Assembly: GCA_002722955.1 (NCBI GenBank)
Contig: PBMZ01000067.1
Coordinates: forward strand, 1-64,000
Source: Planctomycetaceae bacterium
Lineage (GTDB): Bacteria; Planctomycetota; Planctomycetia; Planctomycetales; Planctomycetaceae
Direction of reading: 5' to 3'
DNA length: 64,000 nt
Positions 15,142-27,415 of this stretch are shown one piece after another; positions within the stretch are counted from its first letter, which is position 1, and each line of letters begins with the position of its first letter. The notes below the pieces were generated by a model, which searched no databases, was not told where the DNA came from, and worked only from the letters and a program-made list of their open reading frames with translations. The position numbers and the translations under genes are program-made.

Positions 15142-18100
15142 TCAATCGGACGCCTGACTTGCCGCGAGCTTCGCTTCGATCAATTGGCGCAGTTTCGGTG
15201 GCATGTTGCTGTACGCTTCGAGGACTGTTTTGTCGTTGTTGCCGCCACCTTTGATTTGTGGGTCGGCGCCAGCATTTAACAGGATTTGTAGCAGCCGGTA
15301 AGCCTTTTCGTCGGTGGCGTGCGGGTCTGGTGTCGAGAATTGACTGACGTGATTGAGGAATCGGTAAAACACGCTATAGAGCGCCGTTCGGCCGTATTTG
15401 TCTTTTAGGTCCGGGTTGGCACCATGAGCTAACAACAAGCGGCAAGCTTCTTCGTCGTGTGCCCTCGCCGCCACGTGAAGTGCGTAGTCTTTGTCATAAT
15501 TCGCGTCGTTGGCATCGGCACCGGCATCGATGAGTTGCTTCAATAGGTCAAGCCGCTTGTGTTTCACGGCAGAGCACAAGTACTCGCCACCGCAGGAGTC
15601 GATGTTGGGAGTGGCACCGCGTTTAAGTAACTCGTTGCAGAAGTCATACAATCCGTTGCGGTACGCTACCGTGTAGTAACTCATCTTGAAGATAGGGTCT
15701 TGGCGGTCAAATTCTGCACCGGCCTCGACAAGATCGAGACAAAGTTGACTGCGACGGGCTCGGTGTGACTCGTGCATTGCATGCCGTGAAAAGCGGCCAA
15801 TGATCGCCAAGAGCAGGGGTGTCCTGTCATAATCACTCTCGGCATTTGGGTCGGACCCAAGTTCAAGCAGCTTCCCACAAATGTCACGATTGCCGGCACG
15901 CGCGTGGGCATGAAGGGGTGTCAACATTTGGCGGCCAGACTCGCCCAGCCAGTTCGGAGCGTTGTGTCTGATGTTGGCAGTAATCAGCATAGGAAAGATT
16001 ATGCTGGCGTCGGCATGCCGCTGCGGCCGCAAATACATGTGAGCTGCAAACGGCGAACACCAAACCAAATGAGCCGCATTAAGCCCCTCGTTGTCGTCAC
16101 GCAAAACGAGCGCTTGGGTAACGTCGGCACCCGAGGCGAGCAGCAATTGAACACATTTCGAGGCTCCCCAAATGATCGCCTCGTGAAGCGCCGTCGCTCG
16201 GTTCACGTTGGCTGCGTTGACGTCGACCATCGGATTGCCGTCCGCGTCTGTCTGCGATCCGTGAGCAAGTAACAGTCGCAGCGTCTCGGCATGATCGCCG
16301 TAAACAGGTGCAAACAACGGTGTGTTGCCTTTGTCAAAGTACTGAATGTCGTTGTCGTACTCGTAAGGTTTGTGGAGTATCGGTTGCCACATCTTTTCTT
16401 TGGGAAACTCTTCGAGCAACAGCTTGCAGAATTCCGTGTCCCCTCGAAGCGCCGCTCGATAGAGCGGATGCCCATAATCTTCATCGTTGTTGTACCCTCG
16501 CGAAACATCGAATTGCATCGGGTAAGTCTTTTCTGCTCCAGCATCGAGCAACATTCGAAGAAGCTCGCGATTGCGATAAAAGAGTGCACTTTCCGACGAT
16601 GGTTTAACAAACGTACCTTTGCGTTCATCCGGATCCGCACCCAACGATAGCAAGTATCGACACATTTCCGTCTGGTTCGTGTAAGCGGCAAACTGAAGTG
16701 CCAGAGAATGATTGATCCAAGCCGGTCGCTTCTCGGCGATCAACCGATAGACATCCGGCCAACCCGCACTTGCCGCTCGCATCAACGGATGATCGTAGGG
16801 TCGCTTGGGGTCAGCCAAGTCCGACGGAAGGGCGACGCCAGCATCAAGCAGCTCAAGGCAATACATCGACGATATCTGCGGCGACCGAATGTGTGGCAAC
16901 GCATACATGATCAACGTTGGATCGGCGAGCCATTCTGTCTTAGCTTCCGGCCGCTGGAGCAGGTAACGAAACGTCGCCTCACGCCGAGAATTTATGGCGA
17001 GCCCAATCGGTGAATTGCTGGGCTCGACCGGGGCGAACTTGTCCCCTTGCTGTAACCGCCGCTTGAGTTCGTCGAGTCGCCCGGACACGACAAACGACAT
17101 GAGCGTGCTCTGTTCTTGGGTCTTCTCCTGCTCGACACCGGTTTGCTTCAGCAGCTCAAGACACTCCGTCGAGTTTAGGTTTGCGGCGAGATCACACAAT
17201 GTGCCCATGTAGGAATACTTGGGCTTGTACTTCTTGGGGGCGTAGCCGGATGAGATCAATTCGCGAAGCGTGTCCACATCGTTCATGCGGACAGCCACGA
17301 TCGCCCGCAAGTCCGGTCCATACCTGGGCGAATTCTCGAATTCCTTTTGCACAGCGGAGATTAACTCGACGCTGCCCGACTGATGAGCCAATCCGATCAA
17401 CGTCGTCGCCAACGAGCACTTGTCTTCAAACGGTGGAGTAAAGTATTCAGCGGGCGCTCGATGTATGATGTCCGTATCGGCCACTCGGTCCTTGCCGAAC
17501 GTCGATTCAAAGTCGCAAACGGCACCGCGAGAAAGCAGGTGACGAAACATGAACAGGTCAGCTTCCTCGACAGCCCCTACGATGGGCGTCTTGCTATAAC
17601 CATTTGTCGCTGAGATCATCGCTCCATGAGCCAACAACAGATCGACGATCTCTCGATTCCCGCACCGAACGGCAAAGTACAACGGCGTTTGGCTGAATTG
17701 GTTGCGGCTATAGATCATCTCGTCCGAAGTCGGACCACCGACGCGAGCACCACGCTCGAGCAACGCCTCAACGATTCTTGGATTGCCTTGCTTGATCGCA
17801 CGAAACAGCGGCGCACGCGTGTCCGATCGCTTCGAAAAGATCGGACCGCCCCAATCGGCGTCAGCCCCGGCCTCGAGTAGCCGCAGAGTTTCTACTTCAT
17901 CGTTGGCTTCAATCGCAGCAGTCAATTGCTTCCCAAGCTGAACTCGCTCCAAAGGAAGCACGTATCCAGGAAACTCGTCCTGCAAGATGGCAAGGTCTCG
18001 CTGCAAGTACTCCGGCGGCAACGTCAACCGTCCATTGGGACTCGACTTGCTAAACAAGAGCGACAGCAACGCCAAACAAATCAACAACACCGGAACCAAG

Positions 18101-18156
18101 CAAAACGCCCCGCGACGAAGTTGAGACTGAGATCGCGTTGAGTTCGTGTCTGACAT
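15142..18156 (-). CDS. Membrane-anchored ankyrin repeat protein
   Basis: N-terminal TM segment then many ankyrin units (RTALYSVF, TPLFAPVYGDHAETLRLLLAHGSQTDADGN, KRLDLLKQLIDAGADAN). Confidence 0.88.
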   Translation of the reverse strand: MSDTNSTRSQSQLRRGAFCLVPVLLICLALLSLLFSKSSPNGRLTLPPEYLQRDLAILQDEFPGYVLPLERVQLGKQLTAAIEANDEVETLRLLEAGADADWGGPIFSKRSDTRAPLFRAIKQGNPRIVEALLERGARVGGPTSDEMIYSRNQFSQTPLYFAVRCGNREIVDLLLAHGAMISATNGYSKTPIVGAVEEADLFMFRHLLSRGAVCDFESTFGKDRVADTDIIHRAPAEYFTPPFEDKCSLATTLIGLAHQSGSVELISAVQKEFENSPRYGPDLRAIVAVRMNDVDTLRELISSGYAPKKYKPKYSYMGTLCDLAANLNSTECLELLKQTGVEQEKTQEQSTLMSFVVSGRLDELKRRLQQGDKFAPVEPSNSPIGLAINSRREATFRYLLQRPEAKTEWLADPTLIMYALPHIRSPQISSMYCLELLDAGVALPSDLADPKRPYDHPLMRAASAGWPDVYRLIAEKRPAWINHSLALQFAAYTNQTEMCRYLLSLGADPDERKGTFVKPSSESALFYRNRELLRMLLDAGAEKTYPMQFDVSRGYNNDEDYGHPLYRAALRGDTEFCKLLLEEFPKEKMWQPILHKPYEYDNDIQYFDKGNTPLFAPVYGDHAETLRLLLAHGSQTDADGNPMVDVNAANVNRATALHEAIIWGASKCVQLLLASGADVTQALVLRDDNEGLNAAHLVWCSPFAAHMYLRPQRHADASIIFPMLITANIRHNAPNWLGESGRQMLTPLHAHARAGNRDICGKLLELGSDPNAESDYDRTPLLLAIIGRFSRHAMHESHRARRSQLCLDLVEAGAEFDRQDPIFKMSYYTVAYRNGLYDFCNELLKRGATPNIDSCGGEYLCSAVKHKRLDLLKQLIDAGADANDANYDKDYALHVAARAHDEEACRLLLAHGANPDLKDKYGRTALYSVFYRFLNHVSQFSTPDPHATDEKAYRLLQILLNAGADPQIKGGGNNDKTVLEAYSNMPPKLRQLIEAKLAASQASD

Positions 18157-18245
18157 GCGGCTTGGCCCTTTCTGCACCGACTATGATCGGCGTTGCGCCA
18201 ACGACCCGCAAGCGTTCGTAGCCTGACGTTCTCGAAAAGCCTGCC

Positions 18246-19593: not shown

Positions 19594-20106
19594 TTAGTCT
19601 GACTCGTCGGGTTCGTACAGCATTTCGCAGAATTCGCGAAAAGAGTTTGCAATGTGCTCAACTGCAGGCGCATCAATCTCGGATTCCTCATGCAACCAGA
19701 TCACAATGCTTGGCTGCTGCGGATTGACTGAATGATCAAAACACAGCATGTCCCCCGCAAACAGTTCAGCAAACGGAATCAAATCTGGGCGAAACGCTTC
19801 CGAGTCACTAGCTTGGGTGTGCGCTACGGTGACATGCACGTCGCGCAAACCTGCGTCACGCGGTAAATCGGAAAAGTACATGAAGTACTCAACCATTCGA
19901 CCGTGGCCGCGGCTGTCGTTAAAACAACACTTCTTCGGAATCCCGCCGTTGAATCTTTGAATGAACTCCATGTAATCCACGTCAAAGACGATTGAAGGCA
20001 CGTCTAATTTCAAGTCCGCCATTAAAAGTTCGAATTGTCGCTTGCTAAACGGAATTCGTCTCGAATCCTCTGTGTACTCGATCAGGCACTCGCCATCGCC
20101 ATTCAT
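19594..20106 (-). CDS. SMI1/KNR4 (SUKH) family protein, candidate immunity protein
   Basis: SUKH-like YMEFIQRFNGGIPKKCCF ... DLIPFAELFAGDMLCFDHSVNPQQPSIVIWLHEE ... ANSFREFCEMLYE; 21 bp downstream of a nuclease toxin gene. Confidence 0.8.
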   Translation of the reverse strand: MNGDGECLIEYTEDSRRIPFSKRQFELLMADLKLDVPSIVFDVDYMEFIQRFNGGIPKKCCFNDSRGHGRMVEYFMYFSDLPRDAGLRDVHVTVAHTQASDSEAFRPDLIPFAELFAGDMLCFDHSVNPQQPSIVIWLHEESEIDAPAVEHIANSFREFCEMLYEPDESD

Positions 20107-20127
20107 GAATTCGCTCCTGGTCTAGAT

Positions 20128-23100
20128 TTATGGCACATAAGCACTACCGTCACGTGGGAAGTGACACCAAGCCCCAGCTGATCTACCGCCGTAGTGGTTC
20201 ACTCTGTGTATGCCCTTCGGGACTAGTTGCATTTTCCCGGTGAGGTGGTGATGATGCCACGTAAAACTTGACTGATCAAGTGTTGTACCTGGAAGATATG
20301 TTTCCCAGAGATAGGCGAACTGTTTTTTGTCTTTCATCAGCCACATATCCATCGGCAAATCGACCAAGTACGGTGGGGCTTGCCCTGGAATCGCATGTGC
20401 AACAGAATCGAAATTGGCGACGCGTTTGCCGATGTAACCGGGGACGGTTGTTGAGATGGGGATCGTCGGGACCAAGTCCAGTGCCCGTGCTAATTTGCGA
20501 ATCTTTTTTCTCTGCGTATCGTTGAAACCCGGTATCTGATCTGCCCAACTGTCCCACTTATCTGTATTCACTAAATTTGCATATTTGATCGCAGCCTCAA
20601 GCATCTCTTTACTAACGAGATGCTCAACTCCATTGTGGATGATCTTTAGTTTTCCAATGCCTTTTGGAATCACTGGTATGAATGGCAGTGCGGCAAGCAC
20701 GACTCCAGCCGTGTTACCATCCTCAGCTGCAGACGTTGCTGCGGCAATCGAAATGATGAAGTCGGCACCCGAACTGATCATACCCAGGCCATCAACATAC
20801 AGTTCAGCCAAGGTAGTTGCTTGCTGCGCTGCTTGACGAAGGCCGGATTGATACGAAGTAATCAGATTGGTGACGTCACCGCTGTCTCCGATGTACGTCA
20901 CCAACCAGCGACGCACCTCGGTTGTACCAGCGGCTTCAATCAATCCCTCCATAAGGTGGTATGCGGCCATGGGGGCAGTCAGATCGTCGTCCAGTTGAAT
21001 CCGCATCGCCCCACCGCCGCCAACCCAATAGTCAAAATCCCACTTCCAACCCAAGGTGACAAAGGGATCGACAAAGTCGATGACACCTCCTGCGCGCTTA
21101 TACGCACGCAGTAGATCTTTTGAGTTCTTGTCTGGGTAGAGTAGCTCAAATGCTTTTTCGACGTTGGATTGCGTCAACGCTAGCAAATCACCGGGGGCGC
21201 TTCCCTCACCGGAAATTTTCGGTGCTGGATTCGCAACGCCACCAACTGGCATTCCGTCGGCAACGAATTCGTAAAATCCAACCGTGCGAGTCCCAGACAC
21301 TGGGTCTGTTATTTCGACGTTGACATTGAAAACCCCTGAATTGTCTGCGTAGAGAATCACAGAGGTGCCATTGGCATCCGCTGCCCCGCCTGCTGAGAAG
21401 GAATTGCTGTAGTCGGTGTCCCAGATGATGGAGTCGCCGGTTCCAGGAATCGGGGTTCCTGATGCGGTTACCGCAGTGATATCCAATTGCCCATAGATTG
21501 TCGTGGTTGAACAGGGATCGTCAGGATATCCATCGAGCAGTGTAAACGTGCTCGATGTAATGATTGGACTTCCAGCGTTATCGATGCGGACTTCCCGCGA
21601 TTCTTCGAACGTTCCACCTTCGTCGTCTGTGGCAATTGCGGTGATTATGTAGGAGCCTGAATCTGTGTAGACGTGTGATAAGTTACCGTCAGCCGCCGTA
21701 ACAACTCCGTTGGTCGCCGTGACCGTTTGCGTCGTTCCGTCATCGAAGTCGATAACAATATTAGTTATCTGGCCAGGCAACACATCAGATGCGGTTACCG
21801 AAATTGCAATCGGTGATCCCGTGCTTCCAGTGGATGGCGCTGACAGCGTCACCGTTGGTTCTGCGTTACTGACCTCGATCGTGAATTCGTGTATGGAACT
21901 CGTCGAATCGGACCAATTGAGTTTGGCCTTTGCTGGGTAGCTTCCCGTTGTTGCAGGCGTGCCTAATAGATTGAGTTGATTCACGTTTTCCAGAAAAAGT
22001 CCGCCAAAGAGCGCGTCATAGGCCCCTGATGCGTCGTATGATCCGTCATTGTCGATGTCAACTTCGATTGTCGAAATCGACGGATTCGCCGGCATTCCGA
22101 TTGGTCTGGGGGCAAGAATGTGAAATGTAAGATTACTTCCGTGCCATGCTGAACCCTTTGCGCTGACTGTGATTTCGTCCACGCTTTTCACAGTGATATT
22201 TGTCGACACCGAAAGTCCGCCACCGTCAGTCACGCTGGCAGAAACGAATTGCTCTGTTGAAGGCAAGGTACCTGTAAGACTTAGCTCGCCCGTCGTTGGA
22301 TCGAGAGAGAAGTACTCTGCTCCAGAATCAAGGCTCCACTGATGTGAGTTGGTTCCAAAGGTAGCTGAAGCGTCAGCATCTGAAGAATCGAAATCGTAGA
22401 TGACTGTACCGGCTGCTGCCGTGTGCCACACCTGGACTGTCGCAGTTCCATTGGACGTTGGCGCCTCGTTGACATCATTAACGGTGATTGTCACCCATTC
22501 CGTGTCATATGCGAATCCATCCGTCACCTGAACCTTGACGCGATATGTGTCGTTTTGCTCGTAGTTGAGACGCCAACGAGTCTCCTCGCTGCTAACTGAG
22601 ATCACTCCCGTTTCAGCGCCGATAATAAATGGATGATTTATTGCGCCATTCCATGGCTGCTCCCAAGAACCGTCGATTTGAACTTCCTGATCCAATATCG
22701 CGAAGCTCAATGCATCGTCATCAGGATCCGTGGCCGCCACCGGGCCGACCATCGCACCCGCGGTCGAGATCTCGCTGCCGTCCTGGTCCTCGTCGACTGA
22801 TAACGGCGTTGTCTGTGTTATCTGAGGAGGACCAATCTGCTCGTCATGTGACAATGAACCCCATATGATAACCGTTACCGTAGCAGTTGAGTTATCTGTC
22901 CCATCTGATGCCGTGTACTCAAAGGTATCTGTGTCGTAACTGCCGGATTCGAGGTGATTGAATGCACCGTTTGGGTCATACTGAAAAGTACCGTCTCCAT
23001 TGTCGGACACGAGGCCATCCGTCATGCTCGTGTCAAATCCAACAATCGAAAGCCCCGATCCTGAGTCGTTATCGAGGACATTTCCGGTCGTAAACCCTTC

Positions 23101-23493
23101 TTCCTCGGACGTCGAAAACTCTGGAGGGTCCGAACTCGATCCTGACATTCCGCACGGGGTCGTAGGCAAGATGTCGTGATCATCGACCGCGAACCCAGGA
23201 TCGATAGTGGATGGATCATCATCATCGTCTGGAATTGGCGTATCATCCAGCGGATCGGAACTTGTAGTACCGGATGTCGTTGGATCGATGGGAGTGGAAT
23301 TCGTCTCATAACCGCCACTGCTAGCATCGGTGTAAGTAGCCACCAATGAAGTACTTGACAACAAAATACGTTGTTCCAGCACTTCAACCGGCTGTGTGTG
23401 GATAGCTTGTGGCCGCCTCGAAAAGCTACGCCGCTTACGTGCCCCCGCCCCTAGTTTCTGAGAAAGTAGACGCAGCCAGTTCTTCACAAGCAT
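20128..23493 (-). CDS. Giant secreted cadherin/Ig-like polymorphic toxin with C-terminal WHH (HNH/EndoVII-fold) nuclease domain
   Basis: N-terminal VEVLEQRILLSS motif; cadherin-like repeats (ATDPDDDALSFAI, VTDGFAYDTEWVTITVNDVNEAPT); PKD-like repeats; hydrophobic pre-toxin linker; C-terminus SSFTWHHHHLTGKMQLVPKGIHRVNHYGGRSAGAW. Confidence 0.82.
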   Translation of the reverse strand: MLVKNWLRLLSQKLGAGARKRRSFSRRPQAIHTQPVEVLEQRILLSSTSLVATYTDASSGGYETNSTPIDPTTSGTTSSDPLDDTPIPDDDDDPSTIDPGFAVDDHDILPTTPCGMSGSSSDPPEFSTSEEEGFTTGNVLDNDSGSGLSIVGFDTSMTDGLVSDNGDGTFQYDPNGAFNHLESGSYDTDTFEYTASDGTDNSTATVTVIIWGSLSHDEQIGPPQITQTTPLSVDEDQDGSEISTAGAMVGPVAATDPDDDALSFAILDQEVQIDGSWEQPWNGAINHPFIIGAETGVISVSSEETRWRLNYEQNDTYRVKVQVTDGFAYDTEWVTITVNDVNEAPTSNGTATVQVWHTAAAGTVIYDFDSSDADASATFGTNSHQWSLDSGAEYFSLDPTTGELSLTGTLPSTEQFVSASVTDGGGLSVSTNITVKSVDEITVSAKGSAWHGSNLTFHILAPRPIGMPANPSISTIEVDIDNDGSYDASGAYDALFGGLFLENVNQLNLLGTPATTGSYPAKAKLNWSDSTSSIHEFTIEVSNAEPTVTLSAPSTGSTGSPIAISVTASDVLPGQITNIVIDFDDGTTQTVTATNGVVTAADGNLSHVYTDSGSYIITAIATDDEGGTFEESREVRIDNAGSPIITSSTFTLLDGYPDDPCSTTTIYGQLDITAVTASGTPIPGTGDSIIWDTDYSNSFSAGGAADANGTSVILYADNSGVFNVNVEITDPVSGTRTVGFYEFVADGMPVGGVANPAPKISGEGSAPGDLLALTQSNVEKAFELLYPDKNSKDLLRAYKRAGGVIDFVDPFVTLGWKWDFDYWVGGGGAMRIQLDDDLTAPMAAYHLMEGLIEAAGTTEVRRWLVTYIGDSGDVTNLITSYQSGLRQAAQQATTLAELYVDGLGMISSGADFIISIAAATSAAEDGNTAGVVLAALPFIPVIPKGIGKLKIIHNGVEHLVSKEMLEAAIKYANLVNTDKWDSWADQIPGFNDTQRKKIRKLARALDLVPTIPISTTVPGYIGKRVANFDSVAHAIPGQAPPYLVDLPMDMWLMKDKKQFAYLWETYLPGTTLDQSSFTWHHHHLTGKMQLVPKGIHRVNHYGGRSAGAWCHFPRDGSAYVP

Positions 23494-23730
23494 GATGTTC
23501 TCCTAAATACCGCAGTGCCAATCGATGGTTGTCGATCACCAGCGGTGAGGGATCCATGCCTGTTTCACAGATGCTCATACTGATCATTTAGATATAAGAT
23601 ATATTTGGAAACTACGTACACACCTAAACGTGTGCAAGTATATTTGAGTAAGTTATCGACAATTGCGGGTTTCCACACACTTGGAAAGGGAGTTGATTCC
23701 GCCCCGTGACGAGGCATTGTCGCACCGAAC

Positions 23731-23793
23731 GTAGCCTGACTCTCCGAGCTCTCTGAGTCGGGCTGCATTTCCCGACTCGGAGAGTCAGGCTAC
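23731..23793. repeat. Palindromic repeat (gtagcctgactctccgag / ctcggagagtcaggctac)
   Basis: Perfect 18-bp inverted repeat. Confidence 0.8.
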
Positions 23794-23831: not shown

Positions 23832-24905
23832 TTACTGGGACTCTTTCCACTGCGAGCCGACACGCGGATTGGGTAAGGTCTTGAGCATGTCAAAGAACGC
23901 AGCCCTGTAGGTTGGATAAATCGGCGCTTCCTCGAATGTTTTTTCGTCATAGACGTAGGGCGTTGCTGCGGGCAAGTTGTAGTGCGGGATGCGGGCGTAG
24001 CGGTGGTGGGCTCCGTGGTGGTCGACGTATTGGATTGATTTTGAGAAGAGCTTGCCGAGCTGACGCTTGTCGTCGACGCTGCGGGTGCCGGAGAGGACGC
24101 AATTGCCGAACAGGCCCATGTGCTCGGTGTATTTGTTTAACGTTTGATAACTGCCAGCAACCAATAACGGGCCCATGAACGAAACCAGGAACGCCTCCCA
24201 CATTCCTAGGTAAGTCACTGCAGTCAGGGCGGCCGACCAAGAAGCGATAATCAACGCGTACTCGCCAGCCAGTCGTCGTCGGTTCACTTCCGGAATCTTT
24301 TCGGCAACGAGAACCGAACGCAGGAACAAGAACGGCGTGTAAAAGTAGCCGAGCGAGATCTCCAGGCACGCCGCCAACAGGCGGGCCCAGCGGGGTTTGC
24401 TGGTGTCAACGAACGGCCAGAGTTCCGGGTCCTTCTCTGTCGACATGTAGGCATGATGCCGAGAGTGCGCGTAACGGTAGACGCTCAGTGGCACCATGAT
24501 GATCGTGCCGACGAAGAGTCCCATCATTTCGTTTTTGCGAGAGTTGGGATGCCATGTTCCATGCGCCATGTCATGAAAGGCTAACGGCTTCATGTGCATA
24601 AAGTGGCCGGTGACCAACCAAACCAGAGGTGTCAGCATCCAAGCTGGGCTGTTCCAAGTAAGGTATGCCAGCGCGCACGTTGACAACAGAATCACGTTGT
24701 TCATCTGATGCCAGGCCATCGGCGAATGATTCTGCACGTGCAGGTCGCGAATCGTTTCCTTGACCTGTTCCTGACTAACACCAACATCGTCGCGGCGCGT
24801 CGTGGGACTCACCGGAAGAGGTATGTGCGGCGCAGGCACAGTCTGATGGGGCGTGCGCACCGAAGATGTTTGGTCTGAGCGCTTGGTGGTGGTACTCAAC
24901 GTCAT
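23832..24905 (-). CDS. Membrane fatty acid desaturase
   Basis: Histidine boxes HDMAH, HSRHH, HHGAHHRY. Confidence 0.85.
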   Translation of the reverse strand: MTLSTTTKRSDQTSSVRTPHQTVPAPHIPLPVSPTTRRDDVGVSQEQVKETIRDLHVQNHSPMAWHQMNNVILLSTCALAYLTWNSPAWMLTPLVWLVTGHFMHMKPLAFHDMAHGTWHPNSRKNEMMGLFVGTIIMVPLSVYRYAHSRHHAYMSTEKDPELWPFVDTSKPRWARLLAACLEISLGYFYTPFLFLRSVLVAEKIPEVNRRRLAGEYALIIASWSAALTAVTYLGMWEAFLVSFMGPLLVAGSYQTLNKYTEHMGLFGNCVLSGTRSVDDKRQLGKLFSKSIQYVDHHGAHHRYARIPHYNLPAATPYVYDEKTFEEAPIYPTYRAAFFDMLKTLPNPRVGSQWKESQ

Positions 24906-24976
24906 CTCCTGATCGTCTCGTCATCAGGAGTCTTCGCTGTTTGGGGGCGTAGCCGAACGCGATGGTAAGCGGAGGG

Positions 24977-25060
24977 AGAATTAGTCATTAGTTATTTCTC
25001 ATTGAAGAGCGCGCGAACTGCATGCCTCTTCCAAATGAGCAATAACTAATGACAAATTCT
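24977..25060. repeat. Palindromic repeat (agaattagtcattagttatttctcatt / aatgagcaataactaatgacaaattct)
   Basis: 27-bp arms with about 3 mismatches, nested gaagag/ctcttc. Confidence 0.75.
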
Positions 25061-25106
25061 TCAGGTCCCTAAGCGAAGTCTCCTGAAATGCTGCTCATCG
25101 TGAGTG

Positions 25107-26492
25107 TCACGATGGATCGAGCACCTGATTCTTCAAACGGGATTGCTCAACTTCGCCTTCGCGTTTCAAAAAGGCTTTATCCTCCTTATTGATGTTGAGT
25201 TGCTCCATCAATTCGTTGTCGATGTAAACATCGCGAACAATTTCGGGAGCATAGTCGGGTCCTAGGACATCCATGACCGTAGGCTTCACAGCAGGGCGTT
25301 CCTGGGGAATCACATACCCTTCGACAACGGTTGCCTCTCGCTGATATTCCGGGTACTCAAGCAACACTTCGTGAAGTTCCTTGAGCCGGTAATGTGGTAC
25401 GGTGGAAAACATATGATGCGGCAAGTGGTAATCTTGACCGATCGGAAACACGGCGAAACGCAACAGCGGATTCACGTGGAAGACACGCGTGTTGGTCAAC
25501 CAACCGCGATCCGCATTGCCGTGTTGCACGACTTGCCGCAAAACATTGTAAAAGGCGAACGATGTAAAAATTGGAACAACCCACAAAAGTCCGAAATACG
25601 CCGGCAACGGTTCGCCGGTATGCATCGATCCCCACGTCAGCCCTGTCAACACAAACGTGAAGAAACTGATTCTCATCATCGAGCGAGCACGCACGGAGAT
25701 CACTGGTTTGATGAGACTCTGGTAGAACGCCGATTCAGGCATCGTCATAAACGCGGCCATCGTGGCAATCCAGCAAACGATCGGCGCCGCGATGAGCAAC
25801 GTCCAATCGCCCAAGTAGGACAAGACGCCCAGCGTCGCCAACAGTACCAACAGGTGAGCGGCACCAAGTTTTTGCGGCAGCTTCGAGGGGTTCCAGTCTC
25901 TACGAATGTACGGATTCTTTTCCGTGCCGATCGAATCGTACTCGGCCCGGGCACGGCTGTATTTGAATAGATTTGGCAGCCAAAGTTGCTTGGCCATTAG
26001 CCGCCAAAAGTCGTGTTTTTCCAGCGGAAATTCCGCCTTGTGTCCACTTTGTTTCATCTGCGAGAGATCGGGGTCTCGAATCGGGTCGTTGACGAATTGG
26101 TGGTGAGCCAAATGGTGCAACCCGTAATGGAATGTGGAACTGAAGATCGGCAATGAACAAAGCCAGTCAGCGGCTAAGTCGTTCAGATGCTTGTTCCGAA
26201 ACAACGTCCGATGCACGGCCTCGTGAGCCAACCCGGCCAGTTGATGTTGGCCGGCTCCGACGAGCATCACAGCCAAAACGGTGACGGGAATGTTCCAGGC
26301 AAACGCCAAGCCCGCGTCGACTCGAAAATGATAAAACCACAACGCTCCACCAACGGCCGTCAACAACAACGCATGAGCCCGAAATATGTACATCCAGTTA
26401 GTCACGTTGTCCGTTTGACGTAACTTCTGCAAACGCGACTTGAACTCGGCGTCGCGAAGTGATCGCTGTTTGGGTGTGGCGGGAGATATCAT
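25107..26492 (-). CDS. Membrane fatty acid desaturase
   Basis: Histidine boxes HEAVH, HHLAHH, HLPHH. Confidence 0.85.
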   Translation of the reverse strand: MISPATPKQRSLRDAEFKSRLQKLRQTDNVTNWMYIFRAHALLLTAVGGALWFYHFRVDAGLAFAWNIPVTVLAVMLVGAGQHQLAGLAHEAVHRTLFRNKHLNDLAADWLCSLPIFSSTFHYGLHHLAHHQFVNDPIRDPDLSQMKQSGHKAEFPLEKHDFWRLMAKQLWLPNLFKYSRARAEYDSIGTEKNPYIRRDWNPSKLPQKLGAAHLLVLLATLGVLSYLGDWTLLIAAPIVCWIATMAAFMTMPESAFYQSLIKPVISVRARSMMRISFFTFVLTGLTWGSMHTGEPLPAYFGLLWVVPIFTSFAFYNVLRQVVQHGNADRGWLTNTRVFHVNPLLRFAVFPIGQDYHLPHHMFSTVPHYRLKELHEVLLEYPEYQREATVVEGYVIPQERPAVKPTVMDVLGPDYAPEIVRDVYIDNELMEQLNINKEDKAFLKREGEVEQSRLKNQVLDPS

Positions 26493-27415
26493 TGGGCCAT
26501 CGTCAGTTCTTGGTTTCGAACGACGCTGGTCTCACTCAAGACACCCGGCGAGCGGTATCGCAGCGCGGTCATCTCGGCAGTGATTTGGTCGTTCAAGGTT
26601 TCGTCCAGTTCTTTCAAGTAGCCCGCGACCGTCGCCCCATCCATGACTCGATGGTCATAGACGATGGTGACGCGCACATTACCGTCTTCGTCAACGGGCC
26701 CAAATGTGAGCATCGTTGTTGGCATTGACGGTGGGTGAATGCTGATGGCTCCGTTGGCCGAGACCGTTGTCAGTCCGAACGTTCCAATGCGATCTGTTCG
26801 CATGAATCCGCTCAGATACATGGTGACTCGCCAAGCGAAGCGTCGGATGAATGTTGGATAGCGGCTGAAGTCGACTTGCATTCGAAACCGCTCGACGTCC
26901 ATTACCGGAGCGTGTTTGAATTCGTCGACCGTTTGTTGCAGCTCCATCAAAGTCTGCTTGTTGGGCTCGGGAATGCGGCCGAGGAGCACCCAGTCCTCGC
27001 CACGGAAGTGTCGCGAAACCGTCATGCGGCCGATGGGGTAAGGATGCTCGTAAATGCTGGGCCAGGGGTAAGGCATGTAGCATTGCCGCAAGGTCGCGTT
27101 CCGCTCGGAGATGATGCCGTAAGCCTTCATGAAGAGCACCGGCCAACCGACTCGCGGATAGTTTTCGCGATCGCGTTGCAAGCGAGCCAACTCGCCAATG
27201 TTGCAGTTCCTTACCAGTGCCTGACTGGGGATTTTCTTCGAGAAGTACAACAGATCGTTGACCATCCGCCGGCTTTGCGGCAGTCGAAACCTTCGCCCTT
27301 TGCGCGGTTTGGTTTCGGTCACCGATTCCGCGGGAAATGGTACGCATTCAGCCTCAGCGCCGTTCGAGTGGGCTGTGTCCGTGCGCTGCATGCTTTCATT
27401 GGTCAACTGGTTCAT
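26489..27415 (-). CDS. 2-oxoacid dehydrogenase E2-type acyltransferase catalytic domain, without lipoyl domain
   Basis: Catalytic-like YDHRVMDGATVAGYLKEL; 4-bp overlap with the desaturase start. Confidence 0.75.
   Translation of the reverse strand: MNQLTNESMQRTDTAHSNGAEAECVPFPAESVTETKPRKGRRFRLPQSRRMVNDLLYFSKKIPSQALVRNCNIGELARLQRDRENYPRVGWPVLFMKAYGIISERNATLRQCYMPYPWPSIYEHPYPIGRMTVSRHFRGEDWVLLGRIPEPNKQTLMELQQTVDEFKHAPVMDVERFRMQVDFSRYPTFIRRFAWRVTMYLSGFMRTDRIGTFGLTTVSANGAISIHPPSMPTTMLTFGPVDEDGNVRVTIVYDHRVMDGATVAGYLKELDETLNDQITAEMTALRYRSPGVLSETSVVRNQELTMAQ

Follow-up and report, generated by a model that had tools for sequence, protein, structure and literature searches.

Organization of the locus

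The window, a 64,000-nucleotide stretch of a Planctomycetaceae bacterium genome (assembly GCA_002722955.1, contig PBMZ01000067.1, positions 1 to 64,000), carries on its minus strand two adjoining genes that probably constitute a planctomycete polymorphic toxin-immunity operon: a carrier protein with an LExR leader, cadherin and PKD repeats, a pretoxin domain and a DNA-cutting WHH tip, followed by a SUKH-1 antidote. Gene content and relatives, too, point to a planctomycete host. A sequence-only reading of the locus had given two open reading frames (ORFs) of 1121 and 170 amino acids (aa) on this strand, 21 bp apart, and these figures are exact. The features are as follows; G and L numbers are our handles for genomes and loci.

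20128..23493, minus strand: putative toxin gene, 1121 aa, with leader, cadherin/PKD stalk, pretoxin domain and WHH tip (ORF and Pfam)
23500..23504, minus strand: AGGAG Shine-Dalgarno sequence of the toxin gene, 6 nt 5′ of the ATG (read from the sequence)
23344..23493, minus strand: N-terminal leader, aa 1–50, MLVKNWL...basic...LEQRILLSS (common to the giant toxin carriers of G012 and G017)
23356–23379, minus strand: LEQRILLS motif (LEPR-XLL score below cut-off)
22867..23106, minus strand: cadherin-like/tandem-95/VCBS-type repeat, aa 130–209 (Cadherin_5, NF012211, TIGR01965)
22474..22767, minus strand: Cadherin domain PF00028, aa 243–340 (Pfam 2.3e-8, over cut-off)
21604..21867, minus strand: PKD domain PF18911 (PKD_4), aa 543–630 (Pfam 1.4e-9, over cut-off)
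20617..21207, minus strand: pretoxin domain, aa ~763–959, with a hydrophobic helical end (conserved in relatives; no Pfam or NCBIfam match)
20131..20616, minus strand: toxin tip module, aa 960–1121 (homology to a Pseudoalteromonas piscicida orphan cassette from ~aa 960)
20167..20271, minus strand: WHH nuclease core, W1079 H1080 H1081, L1090, H1096, H1100xG1102 (Pfam and invariant columns)
19594..20106, minus strand: putative SUKH-1 immunity gene, 170 aa, 21 bp 3′ of the toxin stop (Pfam, over cut-off)
20114..20118, minus strand: AGGAG Shine-Dalgarno sequence of the SUKH gene, 7 nt 5′ of the ATG (read from the sequence)

The WHH nuclease tip that had been read at the C terminus is borne out by Pfam (PF14414 at aa 1075–1109, E = 4.8e-10, 39.5 bits against a cut-off of 25.1) and by the complete Tox-WHH signature, in which H1100-Y-G1102 forms the last element. 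A Colicin-DNase match (2.5e-5) coincides with the same core. Rhs toxins whose C-terminal domains have been solved (PDB 8bd1 at 2.3e-17, 8h8a and 8h8b; E 2e-17 to 2e-13) are matched in that part by a WHH profile that includes this tip. The 170-aa product is likewise SUKH-like as proposed, exceeding the Pfam cut-offs for both SMI1_KNR4/SUKH-1 (PF09346, 1.7e-13, 51.7 bits against 25.4) and SUKH_6 (1.5e-11). It has no sequence match in the PDB; PADLOC gives it a weak match of 15.8 bits and gives none for the toxin protein. A search of viral contigs for loci related to the SUKH gene found none.

The cadherin/PKD-like repeats were confirmed. The Cadherin and PKD_4 domains are over their cut-offs; the repeat at aa 130–209 falls just short for Cadherin_5 (25.6 bits against 26.5) and stays below NF012211 (24.1 against 90), with TIGR01965 at 17.0 bits against a cut-off of 15.5. 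The AGGAG sequences 6–7 nt before each start are consistent with translation of the toxin and SUKH genes as a two-gene operon, and scans for sigma-70 promoters and terminators at the locus gave no clear excess over shuffled sequence. The adjacency of the two genes goes beyond chance: a SUKH-1 gene over cut-off comes directly after the WHH gene at 6 of 10 tested loci of the family, as well as here and at L038, whereas the whole 7.1-Mb genome contains only six matches to SUKH-1.

A conserved pretoxin domain followed by exchangeable tips

Searching with the C-terminal half of the toxin matched five related genomes, every time only across aa ~763–970; a related-locus search of genome contigs with the same half gave no result. 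The ~195-aa pretoxin region, which we regard as helical and clade-specific, has no match in Pfam or NCBIfam, and its profile found nothing significant in the PDB. The hydrophobic helical segment at aa 902–947, earlier described as a linker, does exist and is the end of this conserved domain. A degenerate zincin in the pretoxin region, 'MRIQLDDDLTAPMAAYHLMEG', was considered and rejected, the histidine being unconserved among homologues. At E<=0.01 the pretoxin profile matches 10 of 171 family genomes, some weakly or partially.

In 11 further sequences, the tips that follow the pretoxin domain, or its 3′ part, are mostly unrelated. For instance:

L011: AHH tip with Imm11
L007: LHH-like tip (weak) with a DUF2019/HEAT-like gene
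L013: HEAMH-motif tip
L014 and L027: QPHH/QAHH-type tip
L035: AHH tip, then an ORF of unknown type and SUKH
L012, L026 and L034: tips of unknown type

When E-values were computed pairwise over the 12-sequence set, 42 of 66 pretoxin pairs were homologous at E<1e-3 vs 3 of 66 tip pairs. The homologue at L026 rides on an RHS-type carrier, so the pretoxin domain is not tied to a single type of carrier. At L038, two orphan cassettes with the pretoxin 3′ end lie beside a 1305-aa Big_9/cadherin protein that has a WHH tip of its own and a tandem pair of SUKH-like genes, of which the first is confirmed as SUKH-1. Judged from sequence, then, the gene pair is a polymorphic toxin system, with an interchangeable tip, an adjoining immunity gene and orphan cassettes in relatives. 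The earlier assignment to this class stands, and the homologues show neither an invariant C terminus nor a lack of immunity genes: the tips vary, and Imm11, ankyrin, SUKH or unknown ORFs adjoin them.

The tip and its SUKH partner also travel together. A tblastn search with aa 960–1121 led to a replicon of Pseudoalteromonas piscicida (1e-8, coverage 94%) and to a Streptococcus suis phage record (8e-10). In P. piscicida the tip (34.6% over 156 aa) is an orphan cassette with a different leader (MSTSWHYDLLLPD...), 12 bp ahead of a SUKH gene (28% over 125 aa). Similarly, the S. suis tip (47% over 70 aa) is followed after 17 bp by a SUKH-like gene (28.6% over 126 aa). The SUKH protein of the window scores 62.8 and 55.5 bits against these two partners vs 44.7 bits against the SUKH of a different WHH tip. 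These paired homologies show that, as far as sequence can tell, WHH tip and SUKH have been co-transferred between phyla on unrelated carriers. The homology of the tip begins at ~aa 960, where that of the pretoxin domain stops, which fixes the junction from both sides.

Some related loci deserve mention in their own right. A P. piscicida array (L164:1773-9576) has the leader MSTSWHYDLLLPDAAIEGMQ recurring ahead of different tips. Single proteins at L072:3815-4798 and L073:3931-4785 combine a degenerate WHH core (FVWHCDC and YVWHCDC) with a SUKH-like domain, and are possibly antidotes with an inactive decoy tip. In the genome of the window itself, a 314-aa ORF (L172:6473-7414, contig C59) fuses ankyrin-type repeats to a SUKH domain and has unrelated genes on either side.

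The leader and its carriers in relatives

The basic N-terminal region noted earlier is present, aa 1–50 containing 10 K/R and 2 D/E. The LEPR/LEQR-LLS motif was also rightly seen and recurs on toxin carriers; it is a sub-threshold variant of LEPR-XLL, and we therefore call the leader LExR-type. With a profile built from other LExR toxin carriers only, the toxin leader ranks first among the 322 ORFs of the window (E 0.018, 7000 proteins). The pattern M[ILV][LV]xxW[LM] was considered as a toxin-specific leader, being found at first in 5 of 5 toxin carriers vs 0 of 21 other LEPR proteins. Specificity is not claimed, because a wider leader-profile scan picked up numerous further proteins, spread over 111 of 171 genomes; among them are two LEPR proteins of G012 with no visible toxin tip (811 and 758 aa).

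The search for LEPR-type N termini joined to variable tips and immunity genes, which had been proposed as a check, succeeded in G012 (twice), G017 and G039. The census of LEPR-XLL proteins drew matches from 100 genomes, with 80 C-terminal ends of which 66 are complete. The cadherin/Ig giants of the complete same-family genomes G012 and G017 (3854–5917 aa) share the N terminus MLLxxWL...basic...LEQRVLLS, and all have PT-HINT before the tip. The 4099-aa carrier of G012 ends in an AHH tip with an Imm11-like neighbour and the 5917-aa one in a GH-E tip with an ankyrin neighbour; additional PT-HINT ORFs adjoin both. Tip and neighbour of the 3854-aa carrier of G017 are of unknown type. A 5276-aa LEPR protein in G442 has a tip of unknown type and is followed after 14 bp by an ORF. 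In G350, a leader match and a PT-HINT match agree in strand and frame length (2771 aa), and G039 combines LEPRETP, cadherin/RTX repeats and the pretoxin domain described here. The N termini of the three giants of G012 and G017 and of the G442 protein (MLLENWL..PLEQRVMLSG, MLLSHWL..PLEQRVLLSG, MILTDWL..ALEQRVLLSN and MLLHPWM..VLERRLLLSA) can be compared with MLVKNWL..VLEQRILLSS in the toxin. Applied to the sampled LEPR C termini, the pretoxin profile found no additional members.

WHH occurs in 19 of 171 family genomes. Its carriers are mostly of RHS (L058, L059, L061, L068, L070) or HINT type (L060, L062, L063, L074), some are short or orphan (L064–L066), and only the window protein and that of L038 combine it with a cadherin/Ig stalk. 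The suggestion that a cadherin stalk replaces the RHS, CdiA and T6 modules is thus to be narrowed: LExR-stalk carriers exist in G012, G017 and G039, as an alternative to the RHS and HINT carriers that prevail for WHH in the family.

The census yielded further observations. Eight LEPR-type giants (L098, L100, L107, L116, L125, L148, L149, L160) have a common C-terminal hydrophobic segment (SVGY..W..R.G....LS..P.W...DPL) and an acidic tail, which suggests a conserved C-terminal membrane anchor. Two LEPR-type proteins with RHS/YD-like repeats (L095, L152), ended by contig edges, are possible LEPR-RHS hybrid carriers. At G128:C1:3042525-3050501, a 7909-aa PT-HINT ORF is followed by at least 4 short ones of the same kind, two of which contain an internal stop; the whole is probably an array of toxin cassettes.

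Neighbouring genes

Upstream of the toxin gene, two desaturase-like genes and one acyltransferase-like gene (PWPSIYEHPYP..., MDGATVAGYL) follow one another on the minus strand (23832–27415). Between desaturase and toxin gene is a 63-nt near-perfect palindrome (23731–23793; DNA fold z = -8.0), whose 19-nt half-site has 48 copies in the genome and 0 in the reversed control, as in a REP-like repeat family. About 1.4 kb past the SUKH gene, the same strand encodes a 1011-aa protein that has ankyrin-type repeats and, at its N terminus, a hydrophobic segment (15142–18177).

Proposed mechanism and alternative explanations

Domain content, gene order, the modularity of tip and pretoxin and the recurrence of LExR-cadherin carriers with other tips can all be read from the comparisons above. 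Surface display, contact dependence and killing by the toxin are inferred. Export would follow a route that recognises the LExR leader, and the adhesin-like carrier would present or release the tip outside the cell. Cleavage may occur at or near the pretoxin domain, which would serve in processing or entry and whose hydrophobic helical end is conserved. The tip would then enter a target, a competing bacterium, where the swappable WHH domain of HNH/EndoVII type is predicted to cut DNA; the SUKH-1 protein would bind and neutralise the tip, protecting the producer and its kin.

It is possible, and proposed tentatively, that proteins with an LExR leader and a cadherin/Ig stalk form a planctomycete-specific delivery class independent of T6SS, CDI and RHS machinery, with the LExR-LLS leader read by an undescribed export or anchoring route and pretoxin or PT-HINT as the cleavage/entry module. 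Several observations weigh against the reading as a toxin-immunity operon with the mechanism outlined above. LEQRILLSS reaches 12.2 bits against LEPR-XLL (NF012209) in the protein search and 16.5 in the genome search, with a cut-off of 17, and by hydropathy aa 1–70 of the toxin have no h-region or Sec/Tat-like hydrophobic core. LEPR proteins are mostly non-toxin giants, with toxin tips in 3–4 of the 66 complete C termini. The full pretoxin domain is rare (6 of 395 phylum genomes at E<=0.001), this locus itself has no visible orphan cassette, and the tip-swap comparison draws on loci of relatives beyond the species level. AlphaFold2 models from single window sequences without alignment have a pLDDT of 38.7 for pretoxin plus tip and 35.5 for the SUKH protein, values too low for a fold to be read from them.

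An ordinary polymorphic toxin exported through Sec and the type II secretion system (T2SS) is a quite possible explanation, somewhat short of an even chance, in which cadherin/PKD would be another stalk and LExR an unusual signal peptide, with no new delivery class. A 2012 survey places signal-peptide toxins with varied repeats in this T2SS/Sec category (PMC3482391), and in L027 (G386), one of the homologues of the pretoxin domain, a signal sequence of classical appearance, MSSFIRRLAVVAVTSLLAAPTALAQ, and FG-GAP/TSP3 repeats stand in place of LExR and cadherin. However, the LExR leaders of five carriers have no hydrophobic core, their best 15-residue mean hydropathy being 0.5–1.0 vs 2.2 in a same-family RHS carrier, and cadherin and PKD are missing from the T2SS repeats that the survey lists. 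Without such a core in the leader, export by Sec or Tat cannot be taken for granted.

Alternatively, a cell-associated adhesin or structural giant may have gained tip and immunity gene by chance recombination, the tip remaining undelivered and SUKH silencing a hitchhiking toxin. The scarcity of tips among LEPR-type proteins and the mobility of tip-SUKH cassettes between phyla would fit such an event. Such a chance acquisition is improbable. Other genera contain independent carriers of the LExR-cadherin kind, in which a dedicated PT-HINT processing domain precedes the tip and HINT ORFs lie close by, and the pretoxin domain repeatedly stands before mostly different tips. Least credible is a type VI secretion system (T6SS), contact-dependent inhibition (CDI, two-partner) or RHS effector: WHH tips of the family ride on RHS carriers and TssB is present in G039 and G442, but no RHS, PAAR, VgrG, Hcp or two-partner secretion (TPS) domain is among the Pfam matches of the window toxin, and TssB is missing both from G000 (79% complete) and from the complete genomes G012 and G017, whose carriers have the same architecture.

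The toxin-bearing subset of LEPR-type proteins, with its immunity genes, offers a killing or secretion read-out for the leader and so makes the export of LEPR-type proteins directly testable. The pretoxin domain, which has no Pfam entry, is a handle for locating more planctomycete toxins.

Comparison with known systems

The signature WHH..L..H..HxG of Tox-WHH and its pairing with SUKH are already known, with planctomycetes among the hosts (Zhang et al. 2012, PMC3482391). The reported carriers are T2SS, type V (T5SS), T6SS, type VII (T7SS), PVC and TcdB/TcaC, with HINT, RHS, ALF and FilH; cadherin, PKD and LEPR are not among the carriers and repeats given there, in accordance with the earlier view that this architecture is not a described delivery class. 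The open literature searched (subscription literature lay outside the search) yielded no description of LEPR/cadherin toxin carriers and none of planctomycete contact weapons.

The Rhs toxins 8bd1, 8h8a and 8h8b share the tip family and differ in their RHS repeats. CdiA/CdiI resemble the pair in the long stalk, pretoxin, variable C-terminal toxin and adjacent immunity gene; the window protein has neither TPS domain nor filamentous-haemagglutinin repeats, and no CdiB-like neighbour was noticed. LEPR-XLL proteins are alike in a basic N terminus followed by LExR-x-LLS on large surface-type proteins, whereas they mostly have no toxin tip and the window protein scores below their curated cut-off. 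The closest parallel is the TANFOR toxins of Bacteroidetes (PMC7073777), in which a phylum-specific N-terminal domain on large proteins likewise precedes variable C-terminal toxins, including WHH and AHH, with SUKH-1 and other immunity genes downstream. These are proposed substrates of the type IX secretion system (T9SS), whereas the window protein has an LExR-LLS leader and a cadherin/PKD stalk, and the TANFOR domain (TIGR02542) is not among its NCBIfam matches. Tip, immunity family and pairing are thus familiar, and the novelty lies in the planctomycete carrier type, with a minority chance that it represents a distinct delivery class.

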